NCBI GenBank assembly: GCA_017965445.1
Contig: JAGCPZ010000027.1
Coordinates: 1 to 64,000 of the forward strand
Length of the DNA: 64,000 bases
DNA from: Fibrobacter sp.
GTDB taxonomy: Bacteria; Fibrobacterota; Fibrobacteria; Fibrobacterales; Fibrobacteraceae
Reading direction: 5' to 3'
Shown in pieces: positions 4,906 through 12,376 of this stretch (position 1 is its first letter; the number at the start of each line of letters is the position of its first letter). The notes below the pieces were generated by a model, which did not search any database, was not told where the DNA came from, and worked only from the letters and a program-made list of their open reading frames with translations. A program made the translations under genes and the position numbers.

Positions 4906-5006
4906 GTATATCGCACGGGGTGTACTATAAAGATTGAAATTTCGTTTTTATAAATGTTAAAAATATTGAAATTTAAAGAAAATAGCTAAAAATGTACTTT
5001 AATCTA

Positions 5007-5042
5007 TTGACTTTTGTTTTTTGGTAGAGTATATTTGTGAAT
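5007..5042 (+). promoter_or_regulatory. Consensus promoter placing transcription start at the ATG of the first TIGR02147 gene
   Basis: -35 TTGACT (5007-5012), 17-bp spacer, -10 TATATT (5030-5035). The ATG at 5043 is 7 bp after the -10 box, so initiation would fall on or next to the start codon and the mRNA would be leaderless. No Shine-Dalgarno is present. The second copy of this gene has the identical geometry. Confidence 0.75.
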
Positions 5043-5885
5043 ATGAAACCAATAGTTGAATATCAAGATTATCATGCTTTTTTAAGTGACTACTACGAAG
5101 AACGCAAGCGCACTTCGGCATTCTCTTGGCGCGAGTTTGCAAAGATTGCGGGATTTGTTTCTCCATCGTATCTCAAGGATGTTTGCTGTGGGAAGACTAA
5201 TCTCAGCAAAGTGACCATGGGGCGCGTGGCTGCCGCTGTTGGACTTGTGGGCTATGAAGTGACTTACTTCGAGGCGATGGTCCAGTTCGGCAATGCCAAG
5301 ACGGATGATGCAAAGAAAAAGTTCTTGGAACAAATGCACTCGATTGCGCTCGATCATAAAGTCCGCATTGTCGATAAGGATGCGTTCGAATATTACGACA
5401 GCTGGAAAAATCCGGTGTTGCGCGAACTTGCTCCGTTGATGCCGGGGGCGATGCCGGGCGAAATTGCCAAGATGTGTACGCAAGAAGTCTCTGCGTACGA
5501 AGTCCGCAAATCGCTCGCATTCCTGGAACGTGCTGGGTTCCTCAAGCAGGTGGGCGAAAATGTCTATGTGCAGGCGGAAAAGTCCGTGGAGGGCTCCAAG
5601 GAGGGGCTGCCGCTAGCCCTTCGCTCGATGCACCGTGAAATGGGCTACCTGGCCGTCGATTCGCTCGACCGTTTTACGTCAAGCGAACGCAACATTACCG
5701 GCGTCACGATGGGAATCAATCGCGAAACTTACGAACAAATTGTTGCGGAATTGGATGCGTGCCGGAAAAGGATAACAGCGATTGCCGAGGCGTGCACCGA
5801 TGTGACGCAAGTTTACAGGATGAATTTACAAATCTTCCCTCTTTCTAAAGAGGTTGTTGGAAACAAGGAGGCTAAAGATGAATAA
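5043..5885 (+). CDS. TIGR02147 family protein (DUF4423-like, putative regulator), copy 1
   Basis: A 280-residue member of the Fibrobacter-expanded TIGR02147 family, of unknown biochemical function. Residues about 20-75 (FSWREFAKIAGF, SPSYLK, LSKVTMGRVAAAVGL) look like a helix-turn-helix, followed by an all-helical region. No signal peptide or membrane segment, so a cytoplasmic DNA-binding role is the likely guess. A GTG six bases upstream is in frame, but MKPIVEYxDY is shared with copy 2 (about 60% identical by eye), which fixes the ATG at 5043. Its stop overlaps the next gene by 8 bp, so regulator and lipoprotein are probably translationally coupled. Leaderless promoter just upstream. Confidence 0.88.
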   Translation: MKPIVEYQDYHAFLSDYYEERKRTSAFSWREFAKIAGFVSPSYLKDVCCGKTNLSKVTMGRVAAAVGLVGYEVTYFEAMVQFGNAKTDDAKKKFLEQMHSIALDHKVRIVDKDAFEYYDSWKNPVLRELAPLMPGAMPGEIAKMCTQEVSAYEVRKSLAFLERAGFLKQVGENVYVQAEKSVEGSKEGLPLALRSMHREMGYLAVDSLDRFTSSERNITGVTMGINRETYEQIVAELDACRKRITAIAEACTDVTQVYRMNLQIFPLSKEVVGNKEAKDE

Positions 5886-7506
5886 GAAACTTTATACGGC
5901 TTGTGGCGCGATAGCGCTGAGTCTTGCCGCATGCTCTGGAGATAACGGAAATATCAGCGGTACTTCGACGGAACCGAATCCGATGGCGTTGGGATCGTCA
6001 AGTTCAGTGGAGGAATCTTCTTCGGGAAGTTTTGGACTGAATGAATATGATTTGTGGAATCCTCTGTTGGGCGAGTACCATATTAATACGGCGCGTTATG
6101 CGGCTCGGTTGCCTGAGAATGTACAGGCAGATGGCCACTGGTTCTGGGAAGCTCGTGGAGCGGACGAAAATGAAGGCGGACAGTCTTCTATTATCTGGCC
6201 TGTGGCGTTGGGTGGTGATGCGGACTCCCTCTCTACAGTTATTGACTCGTGCCAAGGCATTTGCGGTATCGCCGATTTGAAAAAGGGAGCGATGACTATG
6301 CAGCCCTTTGCCGCTGTTGGCTTTGTGATGGCCAGGGATGCGACCGGTAATCCGACTCCGGTTGATGTCTCTGATTGGAATGGCGTTTGCATTTCTTATA
6401 CCTCTGATGTGGCGGCTTCGCTGGTGCTTGATTTGGGAGATTCGCTAGGTGCATTGTTTGACGATGGCTTTGGCTTCCCGGCTGTGGCTTTGCCGAAAGC
6501 GCTTGATCAGGTTACCAAGTGCTTTAGTTGGAGCCAATTTAAATTCCCTTCTTGGAAAAAAGAATTTCCGGATGGCTGGAGTCGAGAAGCTGGGGTGAAG
6601 TCTGCTAAACAGTTGATTGGTCTGATGTTTAGAATTCAGAATGAACCTGGGCAATATAAGTTCAATATCAAGTATTTTGGAACGAAAGCAGACGGTGTGC
6701 CGGAAGTAGAAAACCCGGAATCTGCAGGCGATGCTGGAGTGGTCGATTCGTCAGGTGAGTTTGTTCTGTACGGCTATGACGGAGTTTTGTGGACTCCAAC
6801 TAAAAATCCGGACCGGGTTAAAACATCATATTATGCTGAAAACGTTTGGCCGAAAAATGCCGTGGAAGATGGCCGTTGGTATTGGTCTGCGGACGAAGAT
6901 GTTGGCGGGATGTCGTCTGTAAAATGGCCGGTGGCGCTAGGTGCGGAAAATTCGTTGACTCCGGTTGTAGAATCGTGCAAGGGTGTTTGCGGCGTTGCAT
7001 CCCTGAAGAAGGGTTCTAGCCAGACGGATCCGTATGTGTCGCTCGGCTTTGGAATCGCTATGGATGCTTCTGGAAAACCATTACCTGTTGATATATCGAA
7101 TTGGAATGCGGTCTGTTTTGAATATTATTCGGAAATACCCATAAGGGTTGAATTGGTTGTAAGCGATACGTCGGATGGCTTGCCGTGGGCGAAATTGCCT
7201 AGCTCTCGAAAGGTTGTAAAACGATGCATAGATTGGGGCCATTTCAACTTGCCTAAGGACCGTATTGCTCCTTATGAAGGTGAAATAAATGACATGAGTG
7301 ACGTGACCAAGATGATGGTGCATGGAAGTTACGAAGCGTCTCGTATTGAAGAAAAAGTGGAGAATGCTGCTAAGCAAACGATTTCTGTAAGGTTGAAGAT
7401 TCAAGATGAAGCGGACGGTGGTTATAGATTTGGCGTTGGCGCCATCCACATGATGTTTATTGATGAAAATGGTGCGTTCATACGCGATTGGCAATCTGAA
7501 TGGTAA
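5878..7506 (+). CDS. Lipoprotein with two repeated domains, partner of TIGR02147 copy 1
   Basis: I do not recognise an enzymatic family. Residues 1-20 form a lipoprotein signal peptide with lipobox LAAC, so the mature protein is anchored through a Cys. A short serine-rich linker (SSSSVEESSSGS) follows, then two homologous domains of about 230 residues each. Each has the pattern DGxWxW, GGxSSxxWPVALG, Cys-x3-CG, and PVDxSxWNxVCxxY. Paired cysteines suggest disulfides outside the cytoplasm; the fold may be a beta-sandwich like carbohydrate-binding or CIA30-type domains, which is a guess. Start chosen at ATG 5878, with AAGGAGG 6 bp upstream. Overlaps the regulator gene, and a paralogue lies at 8527. 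Confidence 0.8.
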   Translation: MNKKLYTACGAIALSLAACSGDNGNISGTSTEPNPMALGSSSSVEESSSGSFGLNEYDLWNPLLGEYHINTARYAARLPENVQADGHWFWEARGADENEGGQSSIIWPVALGGDADSLSTVIDSCQGICGIADLKKGAMTMQPFAAVGFVMARDATGNPTPVDVSDWNGVCISYTSDVAASLVLDLGDSLGALFDDGFGFPAVALPKALDQVTKCFSWSQFKFPSWKKEFPDGWSREAGVKSAKQLIGLMFRIQNEPGQYKFNIKYFGTKADGVPEVENPESAGDAGVVDSSGEFVLYGYDGVLWTPTKNPDRVKTSYYAENVWPKNAVEDGRWYWSADEDVGGMSSVKWPVALGAENSLTPVVESCKGVCGVASLKKGSSQTDPYVSLGFGIAMDASGKPLPVDISNWNAVCFEYYSEIPIRVELVVSDTSDGLPWAKLPSSRKVVKRCIDWGHFNLPKDRIAPYEGEINDMSDVTKMMVHGSYEASRIEEKVENAAKQTISVRLKIQDEADGGYRFGVGAIHMMFIDENGAFIRDWQSEW

Positions 7507-7527
7507 TTTGTTAGGAGGAAAAGCGAG

Positions 7528-7551
7528 GACCCGGCTTAGGCCGGGTCTTTT
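7528..7551 (+). terminator. Terminator after first regulator-lipoprotein module
   Basis: Stem GACCCGGC/GCCGGGTC with a very short loop, followed by TTTT. It ends the first module and separates it from the promoter of the second. Confidence 0.85.
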
Positions 7552-7556
7552 GCCGT

Positions 7557-7578
7557 AAATGATACATTTGTATCATTT
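7557..7578. promoter_or_regulatory. Perfect 10-bp inverted repeat, candidate operator
   Basis: Arms AAATGATACA and TGTATCATTT separated by TT. The right arm occurs again as TGTATCATTTT at about 7642-7652, directly before the -35 box of the second TIGR02147 gene. That placement suggests binding by a repressor or activator, perhaps the TIGR02147 protein itself (inference). The first module lacks this motif. Confidence 0.55.
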
Positions 7579-7655
7579 AATAATAAAAAGTTGTTTTTAA
7601 TTTAATGAAAATTGGTGTATTTTGTGAAATATATCAATTTTTGTATCATTTTGTA

Positions 7656-7691
7656 TTGACGGAGAGTTTTAACGAATGTATATTAATCGGT
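7656..7691 (+). promoter_or_regulatory. Promoter of second TIGR02147 gene, leaderless geometry
   Basis: -35 TTGACG (7656-7661), 17-bp spacer, -10 TATATT (7679-7684), then 7 bp to the ATG at 7692. Spacer length, -10 sequence and distance to the ATG are the same as at 5007-5042, although the bases between are unrelated. This supports functional conservation. Confidence 0.75.
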
Positions 7692-8525
7692 ATGAAGCCG
7701 ATTGTGGAATATAAAGATTACCGTGCCTATATGGCGGACTTTTACGAAGAACGTAAGAGGACTTCTGCTTTTACTTGGCGCGAGTTTGCAAAAATTGCAG
7801 GGTTTACTTCACCCTCGTATTTGAAACTTGTTTGTGATGGCAAGAGCAGCCTGAGCCGCGTGACGATGAACCGTGTGGCTGTAGCGATGGGGCTTTCTGG
7901 TTATGAAATTGAATATTTCGAAGCGATGGTGAATTTTGTCAATGCCCAAAAAAACGATGTCAAGAAAACCTACTTCGATAAGATGATGGCGATTTCGGCG
8001 GCGAACCGGGTGCGTGTCATTGACAAGGATGCGTTTGAATATTACGACAGCTGGAAAAATCAGGTCGTGCGTGAACTTGCCCCGATGATGCCGGGTGCGA
8101 TGCCGGGTGACATGGCGAAGGCGTGCTGCCAGGAAATCTCTGCGCTTGAAGTCCGCAAGTCGCTTGCGTTTTTGGAAAAGGCGGGGTTCTTAAAAAAGAC
8201 CGGCGAGAACGTTTATGAGCAAACCGATAAGGCGGTTGCGGGTTCCAAGGAAGGCTTGACGCTTGCAATTCGTATGATGCATCGCGAAATGGGACGTCTT
8301 GGTATGGAATCTGTTGATCAGTTCGGCCCAGAAAACCGCAATGTCACGGGCGTTACTTTAGGTGTAAACCGTGAAGGTTACGAAGAAATCGTGAGAGAAC
8401 TCGATGCATGCCGCAAAAAGGTGATTTCGATCGCGGCGAAGTGCGGTAAGCTTGATCAGGTTTGTAGATTGAATTTGCAATTTTTCCCTTTGACCGAAAG
8501 AGTCATGCATGAAACGGAGGAATAG
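7692..8525 (+). CDS. TIGR02147 family protein (putative regulator), copy 2
   Basis: A 277-residue paralogue of the protein at 5043, sharing MKPIVEYKDY, YEERKRTSAFTWREFAKIAGFTS in two conserved blocks, and the centre EYYDSWKNxVxRELAPxMPGAMPG. Predicted cytoplasmic, with an HTH-like N-terminus (about 20-75); function not established. The frame is open further upstream, but the ATG at 7692 matches copy 1 and sits 7 bp after a good -10 box. Its TAG stop is followed one base later by the ATG of its lipoprotein partner, so the two are very likely coupled. Composition matches the neighbours, so an old tandem duplication of the whole module is the simplest explanation. Confidence 0.88.
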   Translation: MKPIVEYKDYRAYMADFYEERKRTSAFTWREFAKIAGFTSPSYLKLVCDGKSSLSRVTMNRVAVAMGLSGYEIEYFEAMVNFVNAQKNDVKKTYFDKMMAISAANRVRVIDKDAFEYYDSWKNQVVRELAPMMPGAMPGDMAKACCQEISALEVRKSLAFLEKAGFLKKTGENVYEQTDKAVAGSKEGLTLAIRMMHREMGRLGMESVDQFGPENRNVTGVTLGVNREGYEEIVRELDACRKKVISIAAKCGKLDQVCRLNLQFFPLTERVMHETEE

Positions 8526-8526
8526 T

Positions 8527-10137
8527 ATGAATAAGAAACTGTATGTGGCATGCGCTGGTGCGTTTTCGCTTGCAACGCTTGGTTGCTCGGGCGATAACGT
8601 GTCGGGCTCATCGGAAGATCCGAATGTGTTGACGGCGTATAACGCTTCGTCGAGTTCTGTTGCCGAAAATTCGTCGAACTCGGTGATTGGAACTTCGTCT
8701 AGCTCGTTTGTTACGGAACGTGATGATTTGTGGAACCCGGAGGCGGGCAATTTGACAATCAATATGGCTCGCTATGCGGCCTCGTTGCCAGCGAATACAA
8801 AACCCGATGGCCACTGGTCCTTGGAAACGGATAGCTCGGAGGGCGGAAAATCATCTGTCACGTGGCCTGTGGATTTTGTCCGGGTGGAAGACGAGGGAAC
8901 TCTTGTCAATGCCTGTGACGGAATTTGCGGAATTGCCGTTTTGGATAGGGGCACGATGACGTACAGTCCGTTTACGAGTATTGGTTTTGTACTGGCAAAG
9001 GATGGTGCGGGCGCTCCTGTTCCTGTTGACGTTTCGGACTGGGGTGGCGTTTGCATCAGCTATACGTCGGTTGCCGCTCCTTTATTGGAATTGGATTTGG
9101 GCGATTCCATAAATTCTTTGTTGCAGTTTGGGCTGCCCAATATGAGCTTGCCCAAGACCCGAACCCCGGAGGTCGTGACGAAATGCTACGAATGGAAAGA
9201 TTTCAAGTTGCCTACGTGGACGCGTTCCATGAATCTGCCTGAATATTGGTTGGACAATACCGGCGAAAAGGCTGCAAAACAGCTCGTTGCAGTAAGGTTT
9301 AAAATTCAGGCTTCTCCTGGGCAATATGAATTCAATATCAAAAGTCTAGGGACGTATTCTGACCAAGCTTCAAATCCGGCTAGTTCGTCAAGTGCTGGCG
9401 CATCGCCAAACTCTAGTCCTTCTTCGGGCTCGACATCTCCTGCTGCGTCTAGCGATTTGTGGAACGGAGTCGCCGGAGAAGCTACTGTCAAGACAGGGCT
9501 TTATGCGGAGGGAGCGTGGAAGGCGAAGCCGTATGGCAAATGGTATGATTACACGGATAAATACGAAGGAGGAAATTCCTCGTTCAGCTGGTGGAATTAC
9601 CAATCGTTAGATGATTATGAAAGCATTTATTTTGAATATGTGGTTGATTACTGCAAGGGTATGTGCAGTGATGTTGTCCTAGATAACGGAGGCCTTGAAC
9701 GTGAACCTTTTGCTCTATTTGGGTTCCAGCTGGCGCACAATGATTCTGGTGTCGCGGTGCCTGTCAATATCTCCAACTGGGGCGGAATCTGTGTCACCTA
9801 TAGTACAGATATTCCTATAACGCTGGATTTGGATCCTGTGTCGTTGGAAGTTGATTTTGATACGGCGTCTTCGGGGTTCTATGTCGAAGACGATGGCTTT
9901 GATATTTACAAGTGGCCGTCTGTCGTACTGCCAACATCGTCTGTCGAAACGTCTAAGTGCTTTGCGTGGAGTGATTTTAAACAAACTGATTTGGATAATA
10001 TGCCTAATGGTGAAAAATTCAAAATATCAGGCGAAGAGGCTGCGAAACGAGCCGTGACGATGAGGTTCATTATAAAAGGGAAAAATGGGGACCAAGGAAA
10101 GTTCAATATAAAGGCCCTTGGAACGAACCGTAGATAA
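8527..10137 (+). CDS. Lipoprotein with two repeated domains, partner of TIGR02147 copy 2
   Basis: 536 residues and paralogous to the lipoprotein at 5878; family function unknown. Signal peptide with lipobox LGC at about residues 1-22 (MNKKLYVACAG start), then a longer serine-rich linker with several SSS runs, a first domain (about 65-275), a second Ser/Pro linker, and a second domain (about 310-530). Both domains keep GGxSSxxW, the Cys-x3-C pair and PVxxSxWGGxC. The second is more divergent than in copy 1, with a longer insert. Start at 8527 follows CGGAGGAAT. Probably faces outward in the envelope; serine linkers of this kind join domains of secreted Fibrobacter proteins. Confidence 0.8.
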   Translation: MNKKLYVACAGAFSLATLGCSGDNVSGSSEDPNVLTAYNASSSSVAENSSNSVIGTSSSSFVTERDDLWNPEAGNLTINMARYAASLPANTKPDGHWSLETDSSEGGKSSVTWPVDFVRVEDEGTLVNACDGICGIAVLDRGTMTYSPFTSIGFVLAKDGAGAPVPVDVSDWGGVCISYTSVAAPLLELDLGDSINSLLQFGLPNMSLPKTRTPEVVTKCYEWKDFKLPTWTRSMNLPEYWLDNTGEKAAKQLVAVRFKIQASPGQYEFNIKSLGTYSDQASNPASSSSAGASPNSSPSSGSTSPAASSDLWNGVAGEATVKTGLYAEGAWKAKPYGKWYDYTDKYEGGNSSFSWWNYQSLDDYESIYFEYVVDYCKGMCSDVVLDNGGLEREPFALFGFQLAHNDSGVAVPVNISNWGGICVTYSTDIPITLDLDPVSLEVDFDTASSGFYVEDDGFDIYKWPSVVLPTSSVETSKCFAWSDFKQTDLDNMPNGEKFKISGEEAAKRAVTMRFIIKGKNGDQGKFNIKALGTNRR

Positions 10138-10162
10138 AAATATTGGGGGAGGAATCAAAGAA

Positions 10163-10190
10163 AAAGGGCCCGGCGAAAGCCGGGCCCTTT
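10163..10190. terminator. Bidirectional terminator between lipoprotein and GH5 genes
   Basis: AAAGGGCCCGGC and GCCGGGCCCTTT around a GAAA tetraloop, a perfect 12-bp stem with A and T at the ends. It suits both the plus-strand lipoprotein gene and the convergent cellulase gene. The rest of 10138-10282 shows nothing else. Confidence 0.85.
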
Positions 10191-10282
10191 CCCAAACAAC
10201 AACGAGAATTTGTTCTCTGTGTTGCCCCTTGCGTAAACACTCCAACATGCAAGGGAATTTTTTTTGCGGTCAATGCCGAAAG

Positions 10283-12376
10283 TTAACGCAGCGTTACTTT
10301 CTGCACGTTCTTCTGGCTGCCCATCTTGACGATAAGAACTGCTGGACCGCGGAAGTTTGTTTTCAGCTTGACTTCGTTTGTGCCTGCGGTGGCGTTAAAG
10401 GCCTGCTGTGCAATCACCTGGCCCATGGAGTTCATGAGCATGGCGGTTGCGCGGGTGGCCTTGCTTGCGGTGAACATGGCAGTGACGGAACCCGGTTGCA
10501 CGTTCACGAGCATCTTGGATGCTGTTCTTACGCGTGGCATGCAGATGCCGCTCTTGGTGTCTGCGCCCCAGTCGCCCGTGGCGTTAGCCTTGATGAGTTC
10601 ACCCTTGGCGGTGCCTTCGAGTTTCGGCTTCTTGGTGTTGAAGTCCTGGAGCGTGTCGGCGGTACCGTCGGCTTTCCAAAGGAGCATGTTGTCGAGGTAC
10701 ATGTCGCCGGTGAACTGTGTGCCGTAGAGGTTGATGCCGATGGCGTTCATCTTGGCCGCGTTTTCGAAAGCGAGTTTGCCTTCGCCGTCGCCGAATTCAA
10801 TCTTGTAGTTCTTGAGGGTGCCGAGGTCTTCGACGTTACCGAGAGAGACTTCGTTCCATTTCCATTCGCCGCTCATGTTGAAGAGGGAGACGCTTGCCCA
10901 GCCGTAATCACCGCAACCGTCGCGGGTTTTGTCCATGCACGGGCCTGCGATTTCGCCAGCGGCGCGCAAGTCGAAGGAAATGGCGACGTACTGGCTCCAG
11001 TCTTTGCTGAGGTCGATACGCATGGTGCCTGCTTCGCTGGTGTCCGCTTGAACCGTCTTGTAAGAGATGTGGAGGGCCATGTCGCCATCGAGAATAGTTG
11101 TGTTTTCCTTGACGGTGGAGTCGATGGAATTGCCCGGAACTGCGGCCTGGCCGTAAGCTTCGCGCATGGCGTTGAGCGTTTCGACATCGGTGATGTCGCC
11201 GACTTTGCCGCCGAACTTGTTCACCTGACGGCGGATGATTGTGAAGTTGCCGTCGCCTTCGTCACCGGTATCCCATACGCAGGGAACGAGACCGTTCTTC
11301 TTTGCGGCGGCGACCGTGTAGCCGTACCAGGCTGCGCGTGCCTTCAAGTGTGCTTTCAGGTTGTCGCCGGAGAGAAGGTCGAGGCGTTTGACGGCGCCCA
11401 TTTCGCCAATCACGACCGGGATGCCTTTGTCGTAGAAACGAGTCTTGAGCCCGCTGAACAGCTGGTCGATAGAGCTCTTGGAACCGAGTGCGGAGCCGGA
11501 GCAGGTGTGTGCGGCGTCGTTGCCCGGAGTCTGATCTTCCCAGTAGTAGAACATCTTGCCCCAGTCTTCGTCGCCGCTAGTCATGAGCGAGAACTGGTAG
11601 GGATAGAAGTGGACTTCGGCCATGGTGTAGCCGTCGCCAGCTGGGTCGGTCGGATACTGTTCGGAGAGGAGTGGCGCCTTGTCGATTTCGGTACGCGGAG
11701 ACTGCACGACCACGATGCGGGTCGCGTTGTTGCCGCCTGTTGCGCGCACGGCCTTGAGGCATGCTTCGTGATATTGCTTGAGGACGGTCATGCGCTTGGA
11801 ATCGAAAGCCCATTGGCCGTTATCGGCACCGCCGTTCCACGGGTCGTTCACGCCCGGTTCGTTGGCGGAGGCGAAAATCAGGTGTTCGTCGTATTCGGCG
11901 AACTTGGTGGCGATCTGTTTCCAGTAAGATTCCTGCTTGGCGGCGACTGCTGCTGCGGAGCTGTTCACGAGACCGGTCTTGTCGTAGCCTTCACCGTCGA
12001 ACACGTGGTCTTCGAGCCAGCCTTCGTCCCAGTGGCTGTTCAAGATGGCGTACATGCCGTTGCTGATGACGAGATCGACGACAGTCTTGACGGAGTCGAG
12101 CCATCCGGCATTGATTGTGCCGTTAGAGGAGTGGCTGTTCCAGGCACAAGGGATGCGCACCGTGTTGAAACCGGCGTCCTTGATTGCCTTCACGTAAGCT
12201 GCGTCCGGGAAGGGGTTCCCCCATAGTGTCGGGTTCTTCGGCACTTCCATCGTGTTGCCGATGTTATAGCCGAGGCCCATCTTGGGGAATATTTCGGTTG
12301 CCTTGGGAAGCGCAAAAGCCGAAGCTGCGGCTAAGAGCAGTGAGCTTGCGGCGATGCCAAAGGTATTGAATCTCAT
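10283..12376 (-). CDS. Secreted GH5 endoglucanase with CBM11-like module and C-terminal sorting-like domain
   Basis: Hydrolyses internal beta-1,4-glucan bonds; one of the cellulases expected in Fibrobacter. 697 residues: signal peptide 1-22 (AASAFA), GH5 catalytic domain about 28-395 with acid/base Glu173 in ANEPG and nucleophile Glu325 in IGEMG, plus NTVRIPCAWN and LNSHWDEGW typical of GH5. Residues about 415-590 resemble a CBM11-type beta-sandwich (DGDMALHISYK, FDLRAAGE, NLYGTQFTGDMYLDNMLLW). The last 75 residues (MLMNSMGQVI through VLIVKMGSQKNVQKVTLR) look like the sorting tail of type IX-exported proteins. Ribosome site AAGGAG upstream. Substrate preference within beta-glucans cannot be told from sequence alone. 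Confidence 0.9.
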   Translation of the reverse strand: MRFNTFGIAASSLLLAAASAFALPKATEIFPKMGLGYNIGNTMEVPKNPTLWGNPFPDAAYVKAIKDAGFNTVRIPCAWNSHSSNGTINAGWLDSVKTVVDLVISNGMYAILNSHWDEGWLEDHVFDGEGYDKTGLVNSSAAAVAAKQESYWKQIATKFAEYDEHLIFASANEPGVNDPWNGGADNGQWAFDSKRMTVLKQYHEACLKAVRATGGNNATRIVVVQSPRTEIDKAPLLSEQYPTDPAGDGYTMAEVHFYPYQFSLMTSGDEDWGKMFYYWEDQTPGNDAAHTCSGSALGSKSSIDQLFSGLKTRFYDKGIPVVIGEMGAVKRLDLLSGDNLKAHLKARAAWYGYTVAAAKKNGLVPCVWDTGDEGDGNFTIIRRQVNKFGGKVGDITDVETLNAMREAYGQAAVPGNSIDSTVKENTTILDGDMALHISYKTVQADTSEAGTMRIDLSKDWSQYVAISFDLRAAGEIAGPCMDKTRDGCGDYGWASVSLFNMSGEWKWNEVSLGNVEDLGTLKNYKIEFGDGEGKLAFENAAKMNAIGINLYGTQFTGDMYLDNMLLWKADGTADTLQDFNTKKPKLEGTAKGELIKANATGDWGADTKSGICMPRVRTASKMLVNVQPGSVTAMFTASKATRATAMLMNSMGQVIAQQAFNATAGTNEVKLKTNFRGPAVLIVKMGSQKNVQKVTLR

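Follow-up and report, generated by a model that had tools for sequence, protein, structure and literature searches.

Controller (C) proteins of restriction-modification systems are single-domain regulators of about 80–100 amino acids that are encoded first in their operon, beside restriction-modification genes, bind next to the -35 element to regulate their own synthesis, and are made from leaderless transcripts. Lambda CI is able to activate transcription as well as to loop DNA. PrgX-type pheromone regulators are XRE-type proteins linked to lipoproteins, and the surface glycan-binding lipoproteins of the SusD/SusE/SusF type in Bacteroides likewise have linked regulators. The two regulators analysed here, R1 and R2, are full members of the family TIGR02147 (Fsuc_second)/DUF4423, the models of which carry no function, and neither the partner lipoprotein nor the operators form part of the family description. 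A full-text search, judged by titles and the beginnings of abstracts, returned no description of the TIGR02147-lipoprotein pair in print.

The C proteins C.AhdI and C.BclI have the XRE-type HTH in common with these regulators (Foldseek matches to 1y7y and 2b5a, probability 1.00, ~70–80 columns). In contrast to C proteins, however, TIGR02147 proteins have a second, winged-helix half, a genome encodes tens of paralogues whose DNA words differ, and their predicted sites lie seven turns apart; membership of R1 and R2 among the C proteins was rejected on their size (~280 aa), their two domains and their lipoprotein neighbour and target. The N-terminal fold resembles that of lambda CI, P22 c2, and DdrO (3jxb, 6jq1), whereas the C-terminal half is different and no phage or damage context accompanies it. 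Like the SusD/SusE/SusF type, the partner lipoproteins are lipid-anchored, regulator-linked and, as predicted here, glycan-binding, but the regulator is a one-component HTH protein with no membrane segment, and the cassette is without a TonB transporter.

The window, that is, the whole stretch of 64,000 nucleotides that was analysed (contig C22:1-64000), belongs to a rumen Fibrobacter genome that comprises 79 contigs totalling 2.76 Mb and is 72% complete. Its two regulator-lipoprotein pairs comprise the following genes and domains.

5043..5885, + strand: R1, TIGR02147/DUF4423 regulator, XRE-type HTH plus winged helix (profile match and model)
5878..7506, + strand: LP1, lipoprotein, 8-bp overlap with R1; lipobox Cys and start of the tag at 5932
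6028..6699, + strand: LP1 domain 1, CBM11-like jelly roll (predicted model)
6724..7503, + strand: LP1 domain 2, repeating LP1 domain 1
7692..8525, + strand: R2, TIGR02147/DUF4423 regulator
8527..10137, + strand: LP2, lipoprotein, 1-bp gap to R2; lipobox Cys and start of the tag at 8584
8701..9354, + strand: LP2 domain 1, of the family of LP1 domain 1
9445..10131, + strand: LP2 domain 2, of the family of LP1 domain 1

The starts and stops of all four genes agree with the tandem layout, including the overlap and the gap, that was given in a preliminary description of this DNA; the pair is present twice, as stated there for the window, and 33 such cassettes were counted in the genome. R1 and R2 are 66% identical, and LP1 and LP2 are 39% identical over an alignment of nearly full length. 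The two repeated domains that had been noticed in each lipoprotein proved on alignment to be one domain, present in two copies in LP1 and two in LP2, and in this domain family (n = 50 copies aligned) two Cys columns and one Trp are invariant. Convergent with LP2 lies a GH5 cellulase gene (10283–12376, − strand), the C-terminus of which reaches 15.7 bits against the T9SS sorting domain, under the 23-bit cut-off. No TonB-dependent transporter is encoded in window positions 5037–12376, which contain the two pairs and this GH5 gene.

The family assignment of the regulators is clear, with R1 and R2 scoring 306 and 309 bits against TIGR02147 (cut-off 50) as full-length members, and 84 and 75 bits against Pfam DUF4423 (gathering cut-off 30); the HTH_3 profile scores under its Pfam cut-off. 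In the AlphaFold2 model of R1 (pLDDT 83.9, pTM 0.61), the N-terminus forms a helical HTH with helices 29–36 and 41–48, the latter being the recognition helix, followed by a winged helix at ~109–183, and there are two long helices. Foldseek returned no match to this model at E < 0.001. A second structural alignment of the N-terminal part gave HigA, DdrO, and P22 c2 at Z 7.5–9.0, with HigA antitoxins at the top (Z 8–9). Over 64–76 residues, 3jxb, 6jq1, and 9chl align to the HTH at Z 7.5–8.4 with rmsd 2.0–2.5 (3jxb, Z 7.5, rmsd 2.0 over 64; 6jq1, Z 7.8, rmsd 2.5 over 69), and the winged helix is closest to ArsR/MarR types (Z about 7–8). Z values in this middling range support a fold class and no relationship, and it is as a fold class only that R1, as modelled, has an XRE/lambda-repressor-like HTH. 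What had been called an HTH-like TIGR02147 protein is thus placed in its family by profile, and by model combines a lambda-repressor-type HTH with a winged helix. The leading position of the HigA antitoxins (Z 8–9), together with the two-gene unit, might suggest a toxin-antitoxin or addiction pair with a HigA-like regulator. Such Z values are, however, typical of any XRE-type HTH, and the partner is unlike a toxin in being large and exported, with glycan-binding-like or FISUMP domains and a highly variable body, so that we regard this explanation as hardly credible.

The pairing itself is far from chance. Every one of the 33 TIGR02147 genes of the genome studied has a same-strand lipoprotein-type ORF directly 3' (33/33; the N-termini of all 33 were judged by eye, as the regular expression missed some lipoboxes). 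In other genomes, a lipoprotein follows 113 of 114 non-redundant TIGR02147 genes, 104 recognized by filter and 9 by eye, with L125 as the exception and one locus, cut at a contig end, dropped. A third census, which included all 28 matches in G005 and all 13, one of them a fragment, in G058, a genome in a single contig, and dropped one additional cut match, found a lipoprotein directly downstream of 58 of 64 evaluable genes, L222 among them. One further TIGR02147 gene, at L197/L254 (1-2374 of L254, G005:C6), is divergent from a tagged lipoprotein gene; at another, L228/L251 (3090-4862 of L251, G041:C13), the order is reversed, with the tagged lipoprotein directly upstream; and no lipoprotein partner was seen at L217, L220, L227, and L235 (4/64). 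The 114-gene and 64-gene censuses overlap, because L125 and L227 are one place; apart from this pair, overlaps between them were left in. The constant pairing, which the preliminary description had inferred from two copies, therefore holds phylum-wide, and family members that mostly stand alone or beside unrelated genes are not what the survey found.

The family was present in all 31 genomes of the search among relatives, the genome studied included, and in 110 of 120 genomes sampled across the phylum. All ten genomes without it come from two genera (g18 and g15), a pattern suggesting that the entire system was lost there. Copy numbers in the scans range from 1 to at least 56 per genome, those for the 120 genomes being lower bounds since ~19 candidates per genome were scored at most. 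TIGR02147 was absent from 14 of 14 control genomes, and a single-protein search toward other phyla yielded 12 loci, all from Fibrobacter or Chitinivibrionales. One of the DUF4423 genes of Bdellovibrio is named in PMC12546842. Cassettes can also be clustered, as at L038/L039 (G000:C39:7292-21581), where five lie in one direction.

Upstream of both regulators, candidate operator and promoter elements can be recognized.

4909..4929, + strand: R1 distal operator TATCGCACGGGGTGTACTATA, imperfect palindrome (predicted)
4994..5001, + strand: R1 proximal half-site GTACTTTA, 72 bp 3' of the distal one
5007..5012, + strand: R1 -35 element TTGACT (consensus match only)
5030..5035, + strand: R1 -10 element TATATT, ending 7 nt ahead of the ATG; leaderless mRNA predicted
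7559..7576, + strand: R2 distal operator ATGATACATTTGTATCAT, perfect palindrome (predicted)
7642..7649, + strand: R2 proximal half-site TGTATCAT, oriented like the right half of the distal palindrome and 73 bp 3' of it
7656..7661, + strand: R2 -35 element TTGACG (predicted), 17 bp from the -10
7679..7684, + strand: R2 -10 element TATATT, ending 7 nt ahead of the ATG

The R1 operator has the layout of R2 with a different word, GTACTATA, and in R1 orthologues the distal palindrome is cleaner (TATACAGTAC..GTACTATATA). Many cassettes have such an upstream palindrome and, ~72 bp or seven helical turns further downstream, a half-site in the same orientation, which in many cases lies just upstream of the -35 or on it. 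When 179 deduplicated upstream regions (of 225) were scored against shuffles of their own sequences, 53 exceeded the 95% shuffle score (~9 expected) and 31 the 99% score (~2 expected), and the spacing between palindrome and half-site was 70–74 bp in 37 of the 53 regions passing the 95% level. The other 126 regions, many of which come from other families of the phylum and which include most loci outside the genus, fail this test, and the architecture accordingly holds for part of the TIGR02147 family only. The DNA between the two sites in the window (4930–4993 and 7577–7641) is rich in A-tracts and may be intrinsically bent.

Among the 38 loci with a passing operator score and a spacing of 69–75, the words sort according to the recognition helix: GTATCAT goes with L at residue 46, GTACTAT with D, M or T at this residue, GTATTCC or ATGTTCT with Y, and GTATAAT with the helix SPNFLKL. 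Similarity of word and helix, given C-terminal identity, shows a partial correlation of 0.29 (p = 0.001, n = 38), kinship being partly removed. Conversely, word and C-terminal identity correlate at the same 0.29 once the helix is allowed for (p = 0.002), which indicates that common descent contributes to the match and may account for part of the apparent code. On this comparison, the predicted operator word is common to closely related paralogues and differs where the recognition helix differs.

The words are also local. The perfect R2 palindrome occurs twice in the 2.76 Mb, upstream of R2 and of C48:36575, two TIGR02147 genes with identical recognition helices, and the reversed-pattern control does not occur. 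Across 61 genomes, there are 38 sites versus 1 for the reversed control. Of 29 palindrome loci examined, one per matching genome, 27 have a TIGR02147 gene downstream, 21 of these at 132–135 bp; among the other nine sites, four lie at TIGR02147 genes by their coordinates and five were left out. Perfect GTATCAT palindromes at L318 and L324 have no TIGR02147 gene nearby and are possibly relics or additional members of a regulon. This comparative evidence is strong and supports the view that the regulator would be a DNA-binding autoregulator with its own operator.

The direction of this control can be approached from the promoters. A -10-like hexamer ends 4–12 nt before the ATG in 99 of 179 regions, compared with 6 of 32 other ORFs of the window and 12% of base-shuffled sequences, and in 54 of the 99 it ends exactly 7 nt before the ATG. 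A Shine-Dalgarno-like motif was found in 0 of these 99 regions, so that about half the family is likely to be transcribed without a leader. The clustered cassettes on contig C39 have a leader with AGGAGG and no leaderless start. With respect to the half-site, the promoters fall into two classes. In class A (30 of 38 loci), it starts at -47 or further upstream, and a -35 with at least five of six matches is present in 26 of 30; in class B (8 of 38), it lies at -44 to -36 and a good -35 is found in 0 of 8, about six of these eight promoters looking clean. The usual positions, ~-50 and ~-40, are roughly one helical turn apart.

A pure autorepressor is one way to read these data. Looping between palindrome and half-site would shut a strong promoter until a ligand of the winged helix released it and the lipoprotein appeared. 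The near-consensus -35 of the larger class (26/30) and two sites about seven turns apart suit this reading, and the nearest solved matches to the N-terminal part are repressors and antitoxins. In class B, however, the half-site itself occupies the position of the -35, and the shift of one turn between the classes suits contact with RNA polymerase better than simple blocking, which leaves pure autorepression a possible reading that we hold only tentatively. The half-site taking the place of the -35, one turn from its class A position, points to RNA polymerase contact and leads us to lean to activation; the strong -35 of class A promoters would suit a repressor too. Overall, positive autoregulation, that is, an on-switch that is perhaps self-limiting at high level, is modestly favored over pure autorepression from these promoter sequences.

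Both lipoproteins have a lipobox Cys behind a hydrophobic stretch (LAAC in LP1 and TLGC in LP2, by simple criteria), which agrees with their earlier naming as lipoproteins. An alignment of all 33 lipoproteins from the cassettes of this genome, 1,928 columns long, has just three invariant positions: Met1, the lipobox Cys, and a Gly within the tag. Domains in this set include FISUMP in 11, CarboxypepD_reg in 7, and CBM_4_9 in one. The bodies diverge faster than the regulators, since 48 of 94 regulator pairs (>=50% identity) have detectably similar bodies. Among 1,315 locus pairs with regulators 60–98.5% identical, the tag is conserved and the body dissimilar in 18%, 30%, 22%, and 4% of pairs in rising bins of regulator identity, and a dissimilar tag with a conserved body was not found (0.00). 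At L287, an R2 orthologue (94%) precedes a lipoprotein of mixed origin, its first 42 residues being nearer LP2 (0.71) than LP1 (0.59) and its body LP1-like (0.95 versus 0.43 for LP2), which indicates a body exchange within the linker that follows the tag. Tag and body thus appear to be separable on this alignment evidence, and bodies to vary and to swap between regulators.

Linkage of an XRE-type regulator to an obligate lipoprotein neighbour recalls PrgX, and PrgX itself is found low in the Foldseek list (E 0.31); a trimmed signal peptide of the partner lipoprotein could then be the ligand of the regulator, in a pheromone-like feedback. The structural match to PrgX is weak, however, and the signal peptide is not conserved with the TIGR02147 regulator: for regulators 70–80% identical, its identity is 0.25, lower than that of the body (0.37) or the tag (0.57). 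Feedback of this kind is therefore improbable.

A tag-profile search of three genomes showed that, among the matches listed, the rows that reach the tag are nearly all at TIGR02147 genes, the tagged exceptions being G000:C2:23864, G005:C2:501800, G058:C1:2903540, and some weaker rows. Two of the three consecutive cassettes at L036 (G000:C43) appear to hold a second tagged lipoprotein (among the matches listed, G000:C43:46104 and G000:C43:52785). In seven genomes without TIGR02147, the profile gave 25 weak matches in five genomes; at eight of these loci, the usual tag was absent by eye, and generic or Gly-rich lipoproteins or other ORFs were found instead, a co-absence of tag and regulator that is suggestive only.

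These observations bear on the possibility that the tag directs sorting or display by a dedicated export route, with the regulator setting the level and the link between tag and regulator due to co-inheritance of adjacent DNA. The tag Gly, with Met1 and the lipobox Cys, forms the sole columns common to all 33 lipoproteins, lipoproteins with a full tag are seldom found away from TIGR02147 genes, and the exchange at L287 took place downstream of the tag. On the other hand, a general signal would be expected on unlinked lipoproteins too, where the full tag is rare among the matches listed for the three genomes; a general Fibrobacter sorting signal was rejected for this reason. We give a dedicated sorting role nearly an even chance. 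It is compatible with reading each pair as an expression cassette and differs from that reading on the tag only.

As for the bodies of LP1 and LP2, neither has a Pfam match (E up to 1) or an NCBIfam match. The structure prediction that had been proposed for the repeated domain gave a jelly roll for the LP1 domain (pLDDT 88). Its nearest structural neighbour (Z 13.7) is one of the chains in 7zkq, a complex I assembly intermediate; we take this chain to be of the NDUFAF1/CIA30 type. CBM11 comes next. With CBM11 (1v0a), the model has the jelly-roll fold in common at Z 12.9 and rmsd 2.8 over 149 residues, with 11% identity; LP1 and LP2 fall outside CBM11 and all other Pfam families by sequence profile, and binding is a prediction from the model. 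A CBM11 entry in the structural list was bound to mixed-linked glucan (6r31, 6r3m). Fold, glucan complex, and the envelope of a cellulose degrader together suggest a glycan-binding role. In PMC6851124, 40 of 49 quantified putative lipoproteins, taken together irrespective of cassette membership, are reported to be lower on cellulose than on glucose. The preliminary description had proposed a sensor or binding lipoprotein under its own regulator. The second proposal gains from operators that point to an operon-private DNA-binding regulator and from domains that model as jelly rolls, whereas the first found no support, bodies being swapped between regulators.

We consider it probable, from comparison of sequences, that each pair is a self-contained expression cassette of a local autoregulator and an exchangeable surface-type lipoprotein. 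The TIGR02147 gene is the first of a two-gene unit, and its stop touches or overlaps the lipoprotein start. Its product would use the N-terminal lambda-repressor-like HTH to bind both of its own sites, would bend or loop the A-rich DNA between them and, at the half-site, would contact RNA polymerase. The end of the regulator gene and lipoprotein translation are probably coupled, and the lipobox signal would direct export of the lipoprotein. The short conserved tag would remain with the regulator, and the body would be an exchangeable passenger. In LP1 and LP2, the passengers are two predicted CBM11-like jelly rolls each, which are likely to hold beta-glucan at the cell envelope.

In a bolder and rather unlikely extension, the cassettes would be a bank of switches that sustain themselves and are insulated from one another. 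A given regulator would activate only at its own word or that of its nearest sister, cooperativity between the two sites would give an on/off memory, and tens of cassettes with private words would allow individual cells to wear differing sets of surface lipoproteins. Regulator and tag would be the fixed chassis, and bodies would be replaced at the linker behind the tag, as at L287. Taken furthest, this extension would have the regulator sense the tag of the not-yet-exported lipoprotein as a feedback signal.

Finally, these results turn a large paralogous family of the Fibrobacterota, among the biggest that are unexplained, into a testable system with predicted operators, a predicted recognition code, and defined partner genes, and offer a natural set of near-orthogonal one-component switches. 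They suggest a way for a major rumen cellulose degrader to choose or diversify the binding proteins of its envelope, as private DNA words for each group of switches could let the cell select the surface proteins that it wears.
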